NCBI RefSeq assembly: GCF_928381405.1
Contig: NZ_CAKMSB010000001.1
Location: 186,001 to 250,000, forward strand
DNA length: 64,000 nt
Source of the DNA: Rothia nasisuis
GTDB lineage: Bacteria; Actinomycetota; Actinomycetes; Actinomycetales; Micrococcaceae
Direction of reading: 5' to 3'
The notes under the pieces were generated by a model, which worked only from the letters and a program-made list of their open reading frames with translations, was not told where the DNA came from and made no database searches. The position numbers and the translations under genes were made by a program. Position 1 is the first letter of the stretch. Every line of letters begins with the position of its first letter. Positions 13,340-64,000 of the stretch are shown one piece after another.

Positions 13340-13537
13340 AGCAGGCTCCTTAGGCTTTTACACGGGGTCTTGAGTCTTGCACAATCTAGCTTATCAGGTG
13401 AGGGTCCCGCTTCTGGCAGAAGACAACGAGCTTCGGCGGTCAGCTGAGGGTATCCCACCTGCGCAACAAAATCCGCCCGTCAGCGCTTTGCGCGCTATCT
13501 TATTGGGGAGCAACAGGCGTTGGTTGGCGTGTATCTA
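13340..13537. other. Upstream region of the DUF4190 gene, no gene seen
   Basis: About 200 bases with several small dyads (for example around 13480-13495) but no recognisable family. The structured element A begins at 13538. Confidence 0.4.
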
Positions 13538-13979
13538 GAAGCTTATTCATCAGGGCTTCCGCAGGCTCACGCTCGAGGGAGCTCAGCGGCTTCACCTATT
13601 TTCTCGTCAGCCTTTCTTTCCTCGCGCGCTCGGAAGCTGCCGACTCCATCTGAGCGTGCGAGGAAGTAAATCTGCGGGCTTCAATGGGCGTAAGCCTGAC
13701 CCTCTCGCCTGGTTCGCTCCTGGCTGGCACGCTCGCCAGATGCGCAAGGTTTTCTTTTTCTTTTTCGCTGCACGAAAAATCCTTGCTTATCCAGGCGATT
13801 GGTGCCCCGCCTTGCGGCGGATTCCGTGCCCTGAGGGCGTTGCATCTTCGCTTCGCTCAGATGATTCGCACCAGTTTCTTTTGTCATCTGGGGGCGGAAA
13901 CTGGTGCTCATCGGCTCACTCCATCCGAGCCAGCAGCCTCGCTGCGAGTCTGCTTCACCTACCCTTATGAATAAGCCTC
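13538..13979. mobile_element. Structured non-coding element A with terminal inverted repeats (MITE-like)
   Basis: The ends are GAAGCTTATTCAT (13538-13550) and its near-perfect inverse ATGAATAAGCCTC (13967-13979). The same ends occur at element B (61350-61673). CTA flanks both sides (13535-13537 and 13980-13982), which could be a 3-base target duplication, although the right CTA is also the stop codon of the next gene. The interior contains at least six stems: 13618-13631/13652-13665 (14 pairs, one G-T), 13705-13712/13791-13798 enclosing 13744-13749/13781-13786, 13807-13811/13816-13820, 13828-13831/13835-13838, 13843-13847/13859-13863 and 13868-13878/13897-13907 (11 perfect pairs). Open frames inside lack family features. 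It is either a non-autonomous transposon or a folded RNA gene. Confidence 0.6.
13868..13907. repeat. Hairpin arm shared with element B
   Basis: Left arm 13868-13878 and right arm 13897-13907 pair perfectly over 11 bases around an 18-base loop. The flanks TGATTCGCA before it and TCCGAGCCAGCAG after it recur at 61552-61640 in element B. Confidence 0.65.
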
Positions 13980-14468
13980 CTAGTCAGTGCGCGCCTGCCG
14001 GGGAGCCAGCTTCACAAGAGCTACTCCCACACAAGCCAGCACCACACCAACCCCCACCATCAGGGCAGAAACACCAAAGGAGACCACAGAGGTGAAGAGT
14101 GAAGCACGCAGAAAGGACGCGTCCATCATCACAGTGCGGCGAGCCTGCAGTTCTTCAACGAGAGCATCATCACCGGCATCCTCAGCATCAGTGATCATGG
14201 AGCCTAACTCAGCGTAAGTCTTGCCCTCATAGGCGGTTCCTTCGGCACCGGCAGTTGCATGTTGGCGGATGGTCTCTGCCTGAGCGTAGGCGGTCAAGGG
14301 CCCTTTGACTTCGTCCCCAGCAAAGGCTCCACCCATGAACTGGGAGTCAGCGGGAACAGTAATGCGTTCCTCTGCCAGCTGCCCGCTCACAGTAATCCAC
14401 GCTAGGGAACCTCCCACCACCATAACGAGTGCAACAAAAATAGAAACCAATCCAGCGAAACGTGCCAT
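13980..14468 (-). CDS. Two-TM membrane protein of the family often mislabelled LigA
   Basis: A 162-residue protein. ATG 14468 has AAAGAGG 6 bases upstream and is preferred over the longer frame at 14495. TM1 is at about residues 5-27 (VSIFVALVMVVGGSLAWITV) and TM2 at about 128-152. Between them is a soluble external domain with FMGGAFAGDEVKGPLTAYAQAETI and KTYAELG. This architecture occurs in many actinobacterial proteins annotated as aromatic ring-opening dioxygenase LigA, a name not supported by any dioxygenase motif here. The real function is unknown. Its stop codon abuts the right end of element A. Confidence 0.7.
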   Translation of the reverse strand: MARFAGLVSIFVALVMVVGGSLAWITVSGQLAEERITVPADSQFMGGAFAGDEVKGPLTAYAQAETIRQHATAGAEGTAYEGKTYAELGSMITDAEDAGDDALVEELQARRTVMMDASFLRASLFTSVVSFGVSALMVGVGVVLACVGVALVKLAPRQARTD

Positions 14469-18631: not shown

Positions 18632-18672
18632 TGAGGGGAGGCCTTGAACTCCATGTTCAAGGCCTCCCCTCA
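18632..18672 (-). terminator. Intrinsic terminator of ssrA
   Basis: A perfect 18-base-pair stem (18632-18649 with 18655-18672) with a 5-base loop, followed on the minus strand by TTTTATTTG. It starts 3 bases after the tmRNA 3' end. Confidence 0.9.
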
Positions 18673-18674
18673 GG

Positions 18675-19047
18675 TGGAGATGCGGGGAATCGAACCCCGG
18701 TCCGATGTGGCGTCAACGGGTCTTCTCCGTGCGCAGTTTGTGAAAGCGGTGTTTTCGGCTACCTTGCTTGCGCAAACACTTACAAGGCCTAACCTAGCCG
18801 TATAAAAGTCCCACCCGGCCCTACGACAAGGACGGGCAGCAGTGGCCTTTTAAACTGATGGTAGGGACTGAGCCAAAGGCAAGCTCAGGCTACCAGACTG
18901 CATCGCTGGGATTATTAGGCAGCGAGTGCGAAGTCAGTGCGCTTAGATTCTGCACTTATTTTTTTGCAGAGGGCGTTAACGAGATAACCCTGCGTCCTCG
19001 GCACGCTTCATCCATCTCAACTCACATCGTCGAAACCGATCATCCCC
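18675..19047 (-). ncRNA. ssrA: tmRNA (ssrA), proteolysis tag AESKRTDFALAA
   Basis: Rescues ribosomes stalled on broken messages by trans-translation. The 5' end reads GGGGATGATCGGTTTCGACG (from 19047), the usual tmRNA start. The 3' tRNA-like end has the T arm GGGGTTCGATTCCCC and acceptor strand CATCTCCACC (to 18675). The 7-base acceptor pairing GGGGATG/CATCTCC is intact with one G-T. The tag frame runs from GCA at 18953 to TAA at 18915 and encodes AESKRTDFALAA, with the protease-recognised ALAA end. The length is about 373 bases. Its protein partner smpB is 0.9 kb upstream. The exact 3' base is uncertain by one or two because the CCA is not fully encoded. Confidence 0.97.
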
Positions 19048-40674: not shown

Positions 40675-41267
40675 CGACTCTGACTCTTTGGATGATGCGG
40701 TGTGGCCCTCTCGCGCACTCCCCCTAGTACCCGAACTGCAGCAATAGCCGTAAAAGGTAGTGAGCGCACACGGCCTGCCCCCTGCGGTGTAGTTGAACCT
40801 GCAACTTTAAGCTCACAGTAGTCAGCGCCGACTCCGCAGATTCGCCCCTCGCTCATCACACCATCAGCGCCGATATGAAGAATTTGAACGTCCCTCAACC
40901 CTGCCGCTACAGCACGCAAAGCAGCACCGAAAGAAAGTTTACGGGCTACTGAGCCTGCATCTTGGGCAGCACGGTAGCTGCCACCTTCCCACCACACAAC
41001 CTGGTGCAGGGGTATAAGTAGCTCTCCCGAATCTGTATCGAGTTGTAACCACCCTAGCCCCAGGTTGGCCAGCGTGCCCCTCCACACCCCACCAGTCACG
41101 CTATGCACGGCAAGATAAGCACCCAGCTGGGCCGAGAGCCTGTCAGCTACGACAATTCTTGACTGCTCAAGCAGACGTTGCTCCTGTGAACTCGCCTCGT
41201 AGTCGCGCTGACGCAGGGCCTCGATCTGAACTTCGTAATCTCTAAACAGCAAGTCCAAAGTTTTCAT
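40671..41267 (-). CDS. Hypothetical protein, Sm-like beta-barrel candidate
   Basis: A 198-residue soluble protein. The N-terminal 45 residues form an amphipathic helix rich in Arg/Glu/Gln (a likely coiled coil). The next part (about 50-95: AYLAVHSVTGGVWRGTLANLGLGWLQLDTDSGELLIPLHQVVWWEG) reads like a small beta barrel of Sm/LSm type; a second similar strand pattern follows at about 125-180. The assignment is from strand pattern only. Conserved position between the HTH gene and LysM gene in Micrococcaceae is recalled, not verified. Confidence 0.6.
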   Translation of the reverse strand: MKTLDLLFRDYEVQIEALRQRDYEASSQEQRLLEQSRIVVADRLSAQLGAYLAVHSVTGGVWRGTLANLGLGWLQLDTDSGELLIPLHQVVWWEGGSYRAAQDAGSVARKLSFGAALRAVAAGLRDVQILHIGADGVMSEGRICGVGADYCELKVAGSTTPQGAGRVRSLPFTAIAAVRVLGGVRERATPHHPKSQSR

Positions 41268-59909: not shown

Positions 59910-61334
59910 ATGTTCACAACCGCACAGGAAGTCCTCGACTTCATCAAAAACGAAGACATCAAGTTCGTTGATATCCGTTTCACCGACCTTCCCGGCGTGC
60001 AGCAGCACTTTAACATGCCTGCCAAGTCTATCGACGAGGACTTCTTCACCGTTGGCCAGATGTTCGATGGTTCTTCAATCCGCGGCTTCCAGGGCATCGC
60101 AGAATCAGATATGCAGCTCATCCCTGACGTCACCAGCGCCTACGTTGACCCCTTCCGCCTTGAGAAGACCCTGATTGTCACCGGATCCATCGTCAACCCC
60201 CGCACCGGCGAGTCCTACCACCGTGATCCCCGCGGTGTCGCTGAGCGCGCCGAGGAATACCTGAAGTCAACCGGCATCGCCGACACCGCCTTCTTTGCCC
60301 CCGAAGCTGAGTTCTTCGTCTTCGAGAATGTTCAGCATGAGGTCTCACCCCAGTCTGTTTCGTTCACCATCGATTCAGATGAGGCCCCGTGGAACTCTAA
60401 CCGTCGGGAAGAGGGCGGCAACCTGGGTAACAAGACCAACACCAAGGGCGGCTACTTTCCCGTCTCCCCCGTCGACAAGCAGGCTGACCTGCGTGACGCT
60501 ATGTGTGTAGCTCTCGACGAAGTCGGCCTCGAAGTTGAGCGTTCACATCACGAGGTAGGTGCACCCGGCCAGGCTGAAATCAACTACAAGTTCTCCACCC
60601 TCACCCAGGCCGCCGACGACCTGCTCAAGTTCAAGTACGTCATCAAGAACACCGCAGATGCCTGGGGCAAGACCGTCACTTTCATGCCCAAGCCCGTCTT
60701 TGGCGACAACGGTTCAGGTATGCACTGCCACCAGTCGCTGTGGCTGGATGGTGAGCCCCTCTTCTACGACGAGCGTGGCTACGCTGGCCTGTCAGACACC
60801 GCGCGCTGGTATATCGGTGGTCTGATTGAGCATTCCTCATCGGTTCTGGCCTTCACCAACCCCACCGTGAACTCCTACAAGCGCCTGGTTCCCGGCTACG
60901 AGGCCCCCATCAACATGGTTTACTCGCAGGGTAACCGCTCCGCCGGTATCCGCATTCCCATCACCGGCTCCAACCCCAAGGCTAAGCGCCTGGAGTTCCG
61001 CGCACCTGACCCCTCAGGTAACCCCTACCTAGCCTTCGCAGCCCAGCTCATGGCCGGTCTGGACGGAATCCGCAACCGCATCGAGCCACCCGCCCCCATT
61101 GACAAGGACCTCTACGAACTGCCCGCCGAAGAAGCAGCCGACATCAAGAAGGCTCCCGCCAACCTTGAAGAAGCCCTGGCAGCCCTCGAAGCTGATCATG
61201 ACTTCCTGCTGCAGGGGGATGTCTTCACCGAAGACCTAATCCAGGCCTGGATTGAATACAAGCGCACCAACGAGCTCGCTCCCCTGCAGCTGGTACCTCA
61301 CCCCCTCGAATACCAGCTCTACTACGGCGTCTAA
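59910..61334 (+). CDS. glnA: Glutamine synthetase type I
   Basis: 474-residue dodecameric enzyme making glutamine from glutamate, ammonia and ATP. ATG 59910 has AAGGAGAA about 11 bases upstream. Motifs: [25 protein letters not shown] near residue 50, [19 protein letters not shown] (in [15 protein letters not shown]), NRSAGIRIP, and [23 protein letters not shown]. The adenylylation Tyr is in KDLYELP (about 402). Regulation by adenylylation and GlnR-type control is expected. Confidence 0.98.
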
Positions 61335-61349
61335 GACCAGCTAGGTAGT
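61335..61349. other. Short linker glnA to element B
   Basis: 15 bases between the glnA stop and the left end of element B. No terminator of standard type precedes the element, so the element's own stems may end glnA transcription. Confidence 0.3.
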
Positions 61350-61673
61350 GAGGCTTATTCATTCTTATAAGGGTAGAGGTACCTTAGGCTCACAGCGTAA
61401 CTGGCCCGGACGAAGTGCCCGGGCTCAAGCGTGCAGGCACTCATGAGGGCACAGAATCAACGGAGTGAAGCGAGCGAAAGGCAGGGAGAGGGGCCAAGCG
61501 ACTCCCTTGTCTGTGCCCTGTAGGCAGAAATTTCTTGTTCTCACAGTCTCGAGTGATTCGCAGAGGTTTCTTTTCCATCTTTGGGCAGAGACCTCCGCTC
61601 ATTCCCATGAACTCTATCCGAGCCAGCAGCTACGCTGTGAGTCCGGGCACCGAATACCTTTTGAATAAGCTTC
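61350..61673. mobile_element. Structured non-coding element B with terminal inverted repeats (MITE-like)
   Basis: The ends GAGGCTTATTCA (61350-61361) and TGAATAAGCTTC (61662-61673) are inverse with one mismatch; a subterminal inverted repeat CTCACAGCGTA (61389-61399, inverse at 61631-61641) is perfect. Internal stems: GCCCGG/CCGGGC (61404-61409/61419-61424), GGGCACAGA/TCTGTGCCC (61447-61455/61510-61518) and the arm 61560-61570/61588-61598. The ends and the right third match element A. 324 bases, no coding potential. It separates glnA from the AT-rich YcaO block. Confidence 0.6.
61560..61598. repeat. Hairpin arm of element B, counterpart of 13868-13907
   Basis: Left arm 61560-61570 and right arm 61588-61598: 10 of 11 positions pair (one G-T, one A-C mismatch). 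Three consecutive pairs differ from element A (C-G, C-G, A-T in A; G-C, A-T, G-C in B), each change compensated. Confidence 0.65.
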
Positions 61674-61703
61674 ATATTTTTATTGCCTCTGAAATTACTC
61701 TCA

Positions 61704-62846
61704 TTACACACCTTTAATGAAATGTAATCGAAAGGCGATAAGTGCTACACACCCATACAGAACCATGCTAGGGGTACTTGCCAGCAGGGAACCGCCAGCA
61801 TCAGCCAGCCACCCGACAAGAATGGCAGCTGCTCCGGCGACAAAGGAACTCAGAAGAGAGACAATTGAACTAGCACCGGCACGCTGTGAGGCGGCAACAA
61901 CTAACTGAAATTCTGATTGGCAATATACGCTGGTTGCGATGTGGAACAAAACATGAAACCCAAAGCAGAGGACAATAAGGCCAACATTCTCAAATGCAGC
62001 AAATCCAAAAATAGCTAGGATATTAAATGGCACAAGCCAATACAAAATGTTTCGGCTAACCTTCCTATGACCTATGAACTGTCCACCCACGACTCCTGCA
62101 ATTTTCATGACGGCGAACCCTAAAAGTACAGCAGTGAGGCTGGTGTCGCCAAGACGTAGTTGCCAGAGTAAGAAAGGAGCAACAAGCGCTGCGTCTGCAC
62201 AGATTGAAAGCCACGCCCTAGGGTGCCGTGAAATAGCATAAAGACCACCGAGGTATTCTCGAAGAGGCTCCTGAGAGTGTCCGCTAGCATAGTGTTTGCT
62301 GGGGCGGCCAAAGAAAAAGGCAATGCCTGCACCTGCCATGAACAACGCACCTATCGCCCAAATAAATCTTGGATTGTGCGAGAAGCCTATAAGACCTATT
62401 GCTCCACCCAGGAGTGAGGTTGCAGCACCAAGAACTGTGATAGCTCCGATTGCACGGCGGCGCTCGTAATCGCTAACAGTTCCTAAACGGTTCAGTACAT
62501 AGGCGACTGATGTGCCGCTCATGGCTGCTGCTCCTACCCCAGTGAGAAATTCAGCTGAGAAATCTCCAACAAGCCCCAATGCCAAGAAAAATATCACTAA
62601 GCCGAGGAAGCGGAGCGCGTTACCGACTTGAATTGCTACCCAATGAGATTTACGGTCAAATATTATTGCAGATGGAATCTCAGCTAGAGCAACAGAGATA
62701 TTGAATGTTGCGATAAGTGCGCCGATGACTGCCGCAGGATAACCTATGCTATAAAAGTAAAAGTTGTCAAAGGCACTAAATGCACCAATACCAATACCAC
62801 TTAGAGCTAAAAAAACCCAAATTCCTATACCAGTATGTTTAATCAT
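61704..62846 (-). CDS. MFS exporter of the YcaO cluster
   Basis: 380 residues with about 12 helices. AT-rich codon use unlike the glnA side. It starts 2 bases after the YcaO stop, so translation is coupled. IIFDRKSHWVAIQVGNALRFLG contains an MFS loop 2-3 type motif (DRK) and helix boundaries. It is probably the exporter of the peptide product or gives self-resistance, an inference from linkage; the substrate class is not visible in sequence. No similarity to the MHS transporter at 16 kb beyond the fold. Confidence 0.8.
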   Translation of the reverse strand: MIKHTGIGIWVFLALSGIGIGAFSAFDNFYFYSIGYPAAVIGALIATFNISVALAEIPSAIIFDRKSHWVAIQVGNALRFLGLVIFFLALGLVGDFSAEFLTGVGAAAMSGTSVAYVLNRLGTVSDYERRRAIGAITVLGAATSLLGGAIGLIGFSHNPRFIWAIGALFMAGAGIAFFFGRPSKHYASGHSQEPLREYLGGLYAISRHPRAWLSICADAALVAPFLLWQLRLGDTSLTAVLLGFAVMKIAGVVGGQFIGHRKVSRNILYWLVPFNILAIFGFAAFENVGLIVLCFGFHVLFHIATSVYCQSEFQLVVAASQRAGASSIVSLLSSFVAGAAAILVGWLADAGGSLLASTPSMVLYGCVALIAFRLHFIKGV

Positions 62847-62848
62847 TG

Positions 62849-64000
62849 TTACATAAAAAGGGGGCCGGTGTATTTGACGAATCCTTTCGTTGATGTAAAT
62901 TTACTCCAATCATCAAAACGACGAAGTTTTGGGAAGTATACATCATCTAGAGGTAAAATTCTATTTGAAATACATCGCACTACACTATGCCAGCCGCTAT
63001 CGTTTAGAATGGAACGTGCAAAATATATTCCATTCCTAGATGCATGCTCCACTAGTTCCTGCAGTATAGAATCTGGTGTTTCGGCAGAAGAAGGCTCCCA
63101 GAAATTCACATTATCTATTTCTGTATATTCAGAGTCTCCAAACAAACCAGGAAATATTTCCTTAGCTTTACCAGACCACCAGAGAGACCTCATGTCTGTT
63201 TCTGAAGATGTAACTTCGACTCCAGTAGCAATAGATCGCCACATCTGAATAGCCTCGATAATTGACTTATTAATAGACTCTTGCGGGTTGGGAGTGACAC
63301 CCATTCCGCGCGAGCACATATTTACCCCAGGGATATTTGAAAAAATCGTACAATGAGCGATGGGAATTTGCAGTGGATTGGGCACCCAGCGGAGAACTAT
63401 ATCGACATCATATTGATGCCGAATAGAATCCGCTATGGAGCTATGAAAGGGTTGACCTATCGGGATAAGCGACATATTTGTTCTCGTAGCAAACCAAAAA
63501 GCATCTCTTTCAATAAGCTCGAAAATTGCTTGAAGTGTAGCTTCTTCAATAGTGCCTCCAGCAGCAGCTCCTGTCGTCGAACTCGGAGTAGGAGATATAA
63601 TATCATTGTTTGGTGGTGTGTATGGGGCGAAGATAAGCGAGTCTGGAGCATAAATCATATCTCTCCCACCGAGGACTTCTAGGCTACGCACCTCTATTTG
63701 AGAATCATCAGATATCGCGATTGATTTTTTATCGAAATCCAGGGCACCGTACCATTTCTCATTACGGAAATGACGAGCAGCAAAAACCTGTGTTTCACCC
63801 ATCGGTCTTGAGCAAATATAGTATCTTTCGATACCTTCACCAATACAACTAGCTAAAGCCTGTTCAAGAGACGTCCCCTTTCCCCCCACTGGCGCAAAAT
63901 CCGTAATCTTATCAAGAAACATACCTGTGTCGACGGTATAAATCCCCCCAGTGCTATCTATACTTGGATTGAGAAGGACAGATGCAAAACCAAAATATCC
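62849..64000 (-). CDS. YcaO-domain cyclodehydratase/thioamidation-type enzyme (N-terminus beyond window)
   Basis: 383 residues visible. The frame is open to the right edge; the in-frame ATG at 63922 is internal to the conserved fold, so it is not the start. VDTGMFLDKITDFAPVGGKGTSLEQALASCIGEGIERYY carries the ATP-binding Sx3Ex3R pattern, and GGTIEEATLQAIFELIERDAFWF the second acidic set. YcaO enzymes activate backbone amides with ATP to make azolines or other peptide modifications in RiPPs. No PxPxP C-terminus is present. No precursor peptide or dehydrogenase lies in the window; they may be to the right. AT-rich, suggesting transfer. Confidence 0.88.
   Translation of the reverse strand, partial: GYFGFASVLLNPSIDSTGGIYTVDTGMFLDKITDFAPVGGKGTSLEQALASCIGEGIERYYICSRPMGETQVFAARHFRNEKWYGALDFDKKSIAISDDSQIEVRSLEVLGGRDMIYAPDSLIFAPYTPPNNDIISPTPSSTTGAAAGGTIEEATLQAIFELIERDAFWFATRTNMSLIPIGQPFHSSIADSIRHQYDVDIVLRWVPNPLQIPIAHCTIFSNIPGVNMCSRGMGVTPNPQESINKSIIEAIQMWRSIATGVEVTSSETDMRSLWWSGKAKEIFPGLFGDSEYTEIDNVNFWEPSSAETPDSILQELVEHASRNGIYFARSILNDSGWHSVVRCISNRILPLDDVYFPKLRRFDDWSKFTSTKGFVKYTGPLFM

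Follow-up and report, generated by a model that had tools for sequence, protein, structure and literature searches.

A genus-restricted two-hairpin repeat of Rothia with frequently compensated stem changes, found alone and within MITE-like elements

Genomic Setting and Carrier Elements

The window, which is the whole 64,000-nucleotide stretch of a Rothia nasisuis contig analyzed here, contains two MITE-like elements, A and B (Table 1). Element B sits between glnA (59910–61334, plus strand) and an MFS-like gene (61704–62846, minus strand), whose Pfam score is marginally under its cut-off. The MFS-like gene adjoins a YcaO-type gene, whose sole relative in a scan of named genomes was 31% identical (in Helcobacillus), and the two are possibly a small peptide-modification locus (61704–63922). 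A tmRNA gene (Rfam RF00023) lies at 18672–19047 on the minus strand.

Table 1. Positions of the elements, units and hairpins in the window.
Feature	Position	Strand	Evidence
MITE-like element A, inverted ends of about 18 nt; 3-bp target duplication CTA at 13535–13537 and 13980–13982	13538–13979	+	sequence
Uninterrupted site in element A; homologue G000:C3:41566–41712 holds a nested copy between ATT/ATT	13672–13696	-	sequence comparison
First two-hairpin unit in element A, flanks GATGCGC / GCTTATC	13720–13791	+	R2 49.5 bits, E 1.6e-10
Second unit in element A: hairpin 1 CATCT-TC-GCTTCGC-TC-AGATG, then hairpin 2	13843–13912	+	R2 49.2 bits, E 2e-10
Hairpin 2 of the second unit in element A (the counterpart)	13868–13907	+	read directly from sequence
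End-module hairpin of element A, GCAGC-CTC-GCTGC, non-GNA loop	13933–13945	+	sequence
MITE-like element B, without clean target duplication	61350–61673	+	sequence
Unit in element B, hairpin 1 degenerate	61536–61603	+	R2 33.6 bits, E 1.9e-6
Hairpin 2 of element B (hairpin under study)	61560–61598	+	read directly from sequence
End-module hairpin of element B, GCAGC-TAC-GCTGT	61626–61638	+	sequence

The inverted ends of both elements (GARGCTTATTCA; GARGCTTATTC/GAATAAGC) match insertion sequences of about 900 bp, probably of the IS5 type, in the same genus, and IS copies of about 890–907 bp bear such ends. The 2.7-Mb genome contains 120 occurrences of the end motif TGAATAAGNCTCA with at most one mismatch, against five of a reversed control. 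In the fetched DNA, 47 distinct elements bounded by these ends were found (78–619 bp, with an upper length limit of 800), and an exact 3-bp target duplication is present in 21 of them (P 1e-25 against 1/64), while an exact 3-bp repeat was seen at nine of the 15 IS loci. A site that is empty in one copy and occupied in its homologue, as is characteristic of an IS5-superfamily MITE, was found once (13672–13696 against the nested copy at C3:41566–41712).

The copies of about 900 bp that share these ends code for a DDE transposase, which exceeds the cut-offs of the Pfam models DDE_Tnp_4, HTH_Tnp_4 and DDE_Tnp_1 and whose best NCBIfam model is IS5 family, at 54 bits and under that model's cut-off of 140. 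The transposase is 61–74% identical to copies on Rothia plasmids, and 55 bases of the element end match a Rothia plasmid at 87%. The probable parent insertion sequence is present in two copies, at G000:C1:250803–251708 and C5:106854–107755; the frame is broken in one, and the other has an uninterrupted frame of 270 residues with a putative start codon. The IS has two end variants (TTATTCATAAGG and TTATTCAAAAG), which correspond to both MITE end variants. Shared ends and target duplications support, at the level of sequence, a spread of the MITE form by a probable IS5-type transposase. A search of the Rothia literature on miniature inverted-repeat transposable elements found no paper.

Architecture and Distribution of the Unit

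The original prediction concerned hairpin 2 of element B and its counterpart in element A, for which the same position, a common stem length of 11, loops of 17 and 18 nt, identical flanks and three adjacent pairs changed on both sides had been claimed, and direct reading bears out each of these points. In element A, the arms GCACCAGTTTC (13868–13878) and GAAACTGGTGC (13897–13907) enclose an 18-nt loop and form a perfect 11-bp stem with 11 of 11 Watson-Crick pairs. In element B, the arms GCAGAGGTTTC (61560–61570) and GAGACCTCCGC (61588–61598) enclose a 17-nt loop and form nine Watson-Crick pairs, one T.G pair and one A.C mismatch at the third pair. The flanks of both hairpins are GATTCGC and TCCGAGCCAGCAG, and pairs 4–6 are switched on both sides (C-G, C-G, A-T versus G-C, A-T, G-C). 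Three pairs are thus compensated between the two hairpins and two changes in the element B copy are one-sided, the T.G at 61568/61590 and the A.C at 61562/61596, which the prediction had left out.

This hairpin is the second of a two-hairpin unit of about 70 nt, with the layout [stem1]-TC-GC..GC-TC-[stem1']-ATTCGC-[stem2..stem2']-GCTCATC, in which hairpin 1 carries a TC/TC mismatch in stem 1 and a short GC-closed loop. A sequence-only model (R1) and a structured model (R2) were built from the copies found here, and those copies match by construction. In the window, R2 matched both units of element A and the unit of element B; one more match, at 40823, is weak (E 0.024) and probably due to chance. 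Among the R1 matches, the constant flanks GATTCGC and GCTCATC enclose arms of widely differing sequence.

The unit also exists without transposon ends, and such stand-alone units adjoin 5S rRNA genes, tRNA genes and gene ends. There are also long copies of about 166 nt (set A5), in which an outer stem and an additional hairpin take part and the outermost stems vary widely, and chimeric copies in which the left arm is replaced (C1:154827, C18:10876). At one locus (L182, G005:C10:27600–34200), four units lie in or near truncated repeats of the end of a 5S rRNA gene and its terminator, with tRNA genes nearby. Another locus (L202, G029:C1:1392659–1392919) has three tandem 99-bp copies of a gene 3' end with a related hairpin. 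Judged by eye, similar partial duplications of gene ends lie beside units at L215 and L223, and a tRNA end is duplicated at L203. In a comparison by eye of different species, the long element also lies in opposite orientations at what seem to be matching intergenic sites (L213 and L218 versus L217; L210 versus L184).

In the genus, R2 gave 156 matches (E ≤ 0.001), spread over 17 of 35 genomes, and 26 matches in the own genome. The search of the order sample was stricter than that of the genus, both in its filters and in its E-value limit (E ≤ 1e-5), and matches occurred in two of 297 genomes, both of this genus. The two-hairpin unit is confined to this genus in the samples searched. R1 matched 13 of 35 genomes, and many of its matches cover just the end module or belong to other modules. 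The transposase of the probable parent IS was found in 19 of 35 genus genomes, 15 of which also have the unit (Fisher p 1e-4, with relatedness uncorrected). At the limit used, two unit-bearing genomes (G012, G004) gave no match to the transposase, and no unit was found in four genomes that have it. Of 38 loci tried, the gene context of 37 was judged with a simple open-frame rule, as tandem in 16, convergent in seven, divergent in one and unclear in 13.

Base Pairing and Covariation Among Copies

Pair counts were based on the sets A1, A4 and A5, and elsewhere the arms were anchored by their distance from the flanks or the apex. The filtered list demands at least six of eight arm pairs and holds 59 distinct strings, a few of which are probably chance coding matches. 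The flank-pattern set has 45 rows and no pairing filter; L001 and L011 each stand in it in two registers, and L001, L011 and L206, in which hairpin 1 is missing or out of register, were kept in the tallies. The MAFFT alignment A3 comprises 56 units (43 of the flank-pattern set and 14 of the filtered list, with one of the two L012 registers omitted and L001 and L011 skipped); its right arms fall into two registers, and it was excluded from the pair counts. A4 (20 units) and A5 (10 long copies) are subsets of one apex type, their structures were read from the member sequences, and the filtered list supplied 10 of the 20 rows of A4 and five of the 10 of A5, which favors pairing. All covariation shuffles ignore relatedness.

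For 13 copies of the own genome, several of them near-identical, the hairpin and the end-module hairpin (16 pairs) were compared with shuffles in which the 3' letters were permuted among the copies. Among these copies, 97.9% of the cells pair versus 94.2% (sd 0.8) after shuffling, and four pairs are changed on both sides versus 1.1; none of 500 shuffles attained the observed pairing or the observed count of double changes. When the partners were slid by 1–3 columns, 28–53% of the cells paired.

A search for the flanks alone, with the arms disregarded (GATTCGCN{26,56}GCTCATC), matched 30 of the 35 genomes, many of the matches being apparently chance coding ones. The 101 distinct strings differ strongly in their arms, and at least seven of eight arm pairs (G.T counted) are formed in 31 of them, compared with 4% of re-paired arms. 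In the fetched loci, flank-anchored units with unconditioned arms have 171 of 200 Watson-Crick cells in stem 2 (47.5% after re-pairing), the other 29 being non-Watson-Crick, and 85 of 110 in stem 1 (44.5% after re-pairing); for 10 of 13 rows, mutual information peaks at the true partner. The 23 distinct apex-anchored matches, to which no filter was applied and in which both arms and flanks are unconditioned, have 93 of 138 Watson-Crick cells versus 43.8% after re-pairing, and at least five of six pairs in 12 of 23 matches versus 18%, which is weaker than in the tests on filtered rows.

In A4, 11 pairs are changed on both sides versus 6.6 after shuffling, the cells changed on both sides number 42 versus 11.7, and the covariation score is 0.261 versus 0.102, while slid registers pair in 29–45% of the cells. 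In A5, 17 pairs are changed on both sides versus 9.5, the count of further pair types does not exceed that of the shuffles (224 of 500), and the outer stem and the further hairpin pair in 78% and 72% of the cells. The covariation predicted from two hairpins recurs when the copies are gathered, in many stem types and in two adjacent helices.

Several stem types are connected by one-sided intermediates, some of them in tandem copies that lie about 250 bp from each other at L182. TAGCC/GGCTG stands between CAGCC/GGCTG and TAGCC/GGCTA, CTGGC/ACCAG between CTGGC/GCCAG and CTGGT/ACCAG, and GCCGGG/CCTGGC occurs among tandem copies. A site that appears to be orthologous (G000:C5 versus G028:C32, with the same neighboring gene by eye) shows two uncompensated changes in stem 2, and the chimeric copies with a replaced left arm are further departures from full compensation.

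Conserved Mismatches, Apical Loops and Strand

Two features are conserved as the stems drift: the symmetric TC/TC mismatches, which read as G.A/A.G on the opposite strand, and the apical loops of the form C(GNA)G. When both strands of the 47 elements were scanned, TC/TC (= GA/GA) accounted for 47 of the 186 two-by-two internal loops (26 when counted on one strand, 11 of them distinct). A one-strand scan of 396 control pieces from the window gave one TC/TC among 468 such loops. In A4, the major letter has a frequency of 95.6% at the TC positions, 95.0% at the GC steps and 94.1% at the remaining positions, compared with 78.3% in stem 1 and 60.5% in the variable stem 2. On the minus strand, the apex of hairpin 2 is a C-G-closed GNA triloop in 21 of 26 units (GAA in 16, GTA in three and GCA in two), and the loop of the end module is GNA in 64 of 86 strings, the end loop of element A being GAG.

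Predicted RNA energy is lower for the minus strand in 41 of 56, 15 of 20 and nine of 10 cases (overlapping sets), and the predicted folding of elements B and A gives a z of -5.5 each. The plus-strand ratio of A.C to G.T is 20:6 in A4 (p 0.08) and 20:4 in A5 (p 0.06), against composition and with non-independent cells, and it leans to the minus strand; the bias is absent in A1 (2:15, p 0.75). With these values, no firm strand follows from the wobble bias.

Interpretation

Plain duplication was rejected, since the arms differ among the copies yet remain largely complementary. The claim that structure is selected beyond duplication is supported, with the compensation being frequent rather than complete. 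Duplication and structure both apply, since what is duplicated and dispersed here is a mobile repeat. Constant mismatches and loops beside drifting, largely complementary stems argue for selection on a folded strand, and the fold itself appears to be what matters. We regard it as probable that this is a two-hairpin, genus-restricted repeat whose stems vary with frequent compensation, of which one single strand is selected to fold and which is partly a passenger of IS5-type MITEs.

Pairs may also seem compensated without selection, if strand switching during replication copies one arm of a palindrome to the other. Arms that are frequently perfect and widely different fit such mutational correction, as does the occurrence of both mismatch kinds (A.C and G.T); yet the TC/TC mismatches are conserved within the stems, and pure palindrome correction is disfavored because it would remove them. 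The apical loops that mostly hold the GNA pattern and the half-compensated intermediates that persist also speak against it, and we consider it unlikely. The diversity of the arms would not be compensatory at all if a small insertion had independently taken up different palindromes, for which the very different outermost stems of the long copies and the varied contexts of the stand-alone units could be cited. The insertion of ready-made palindromes is disfavored because it does not predict intermediates, and the stepwise series with one-sided intermediates, including the tandem copies at L182, makes this reading very unlikely.

Within the favored reading of a strand selected to fold, this strand would be RNA or single-stranded DNA, read by some factor. 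If the unit acts in transcripts as a 3'-end stabilizer, an attenuator or a small RNA, selection would be at the RNA level; the covariation across several nested helices, the folding of elements B and A and the contexts of the 24 classifiable units, of which 16 are tandem, agree with this, but there is no Rfam family, the wobble bias gives no firm strand and the orientation relative to the tandem neighbors is not fixed (11 minus, five plus). A structured RNA is a possibility to be taken seriously, short of being the probable form. Folded single-stranded DNA could serve as the substrate of a transposase or another nuclease, as with REP/RAYT or IS200 hairpins, and we see it as possible, if somewhat unlikely. 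The units are dispersed, modular and mostly intergenic, and their minus strand has tandem G.A mismatches and C(GNA)G loops, GNA mini-hairpins being described as extremely stable as DNA (PMC4686876). Against it, a Y1 transposase occurs in only three of the 35 genus genomes and is absent from the own genome, and its three loci gave no complementary-arm unit by R2 or by the flank pattern.

As for a mechanism, one single strand would be selected to fold, more likely the minus strand, on which the mismatches would become tandem G.A/A.G and the apex would be C(GNA)G, of the loop class of stable DNA mini-hairpins. The fold may be read by a protein or may shield an RNA 3' end, and the copies may spread partly as passengers of an IS5-type transposase and partly by another route. 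The most specific version of this account is a genus-specific mobile repeat recognized as a folded single strand, whose stems can drift if they stay paired, whose signature of tandem G.A and C(GNA)G is read by a putative protein and which spreads both alone and in IS5-type MITEs; taken as a whole, it is speculative and rather doubtful. If the fold is selected, more than 100 natural copies in related species, with varying stems and constant loops, make structure versus sequence testable, and if the folded strand is DNA, the unit would show the very stable GNA mini-hairpin in use in nature.

Comparison With Known Systems

The carrier elements resemble IS5-superfamily MITEs in that their ends are common to a resident IS of about 900 bp, that they have 3-bp target duplications and no transposase gene, and that a nested insertion occurs. 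Unlike in such MITEs, the interior here holds covarying two-hairpin units, which occur elsewhere with no such ends around them. At the gathering score, the only Rfam match in the window was the tmRNA. Ten unit loci searched at E ≤ 1 gave only 5S rRNA, tRNA and a neighboring Actino-pnp above gathering, the rest being weak and below it, and 61200–61800 at E ≤ 5 gave a single 14-bit match, under gathering. A known RNA family was therefore rejected for the unit, as Rfam gave nothing above threshold (element A was searched at gathering only).

The Y1 transposase is the enzyme of REP palindromes. Mobilization of the REP/RAYT kind was rejected here, in view of the own genome without a Y1 transposase and the three Y1 loci without a unit (L271, L272 and L273, whose fetched flanks were searched). 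REP/BIME elements with RAYT are likewise many-copy palindromes whose stems vary yet stay complementary, in composite arrangements (PMC2817692), and the title of PMC3733652 names a GTAG/CGTC tag, conserved at one end of the palindrome. Unlike these, the unit here has two hairpins with TC/TC mismatches. No GTAG-type head was noticed at the feet that were read, and the feet in A3 are GATTCGC and GCTCATC. Pneumococcal BOX elements are intergenic repeats of modular build, which fold and combine their modules in various ways. The unit is similar to them as a modular, foldable intergenic repeat and appears to differ in sequence, host and ends.

The minus-strand apex, mostly C(GNA)G and closed by G-C, is similar to the d(GCGAAGC)/GNA mini-hairpins, which are synthetic DNA in the available part of that report, where a natural mobile repeat is not mentioned (PMC4686876). 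A literature search over titles and the first lines of abstracts gave, among the matches listed, nothing on this two-hairpin repeat. The MITE belongs to a known kind, and the two-hairpin unit, with no Rfam match, is best labeled a previously undescribed, REP/BOX-like variant of structured mobile repeats.
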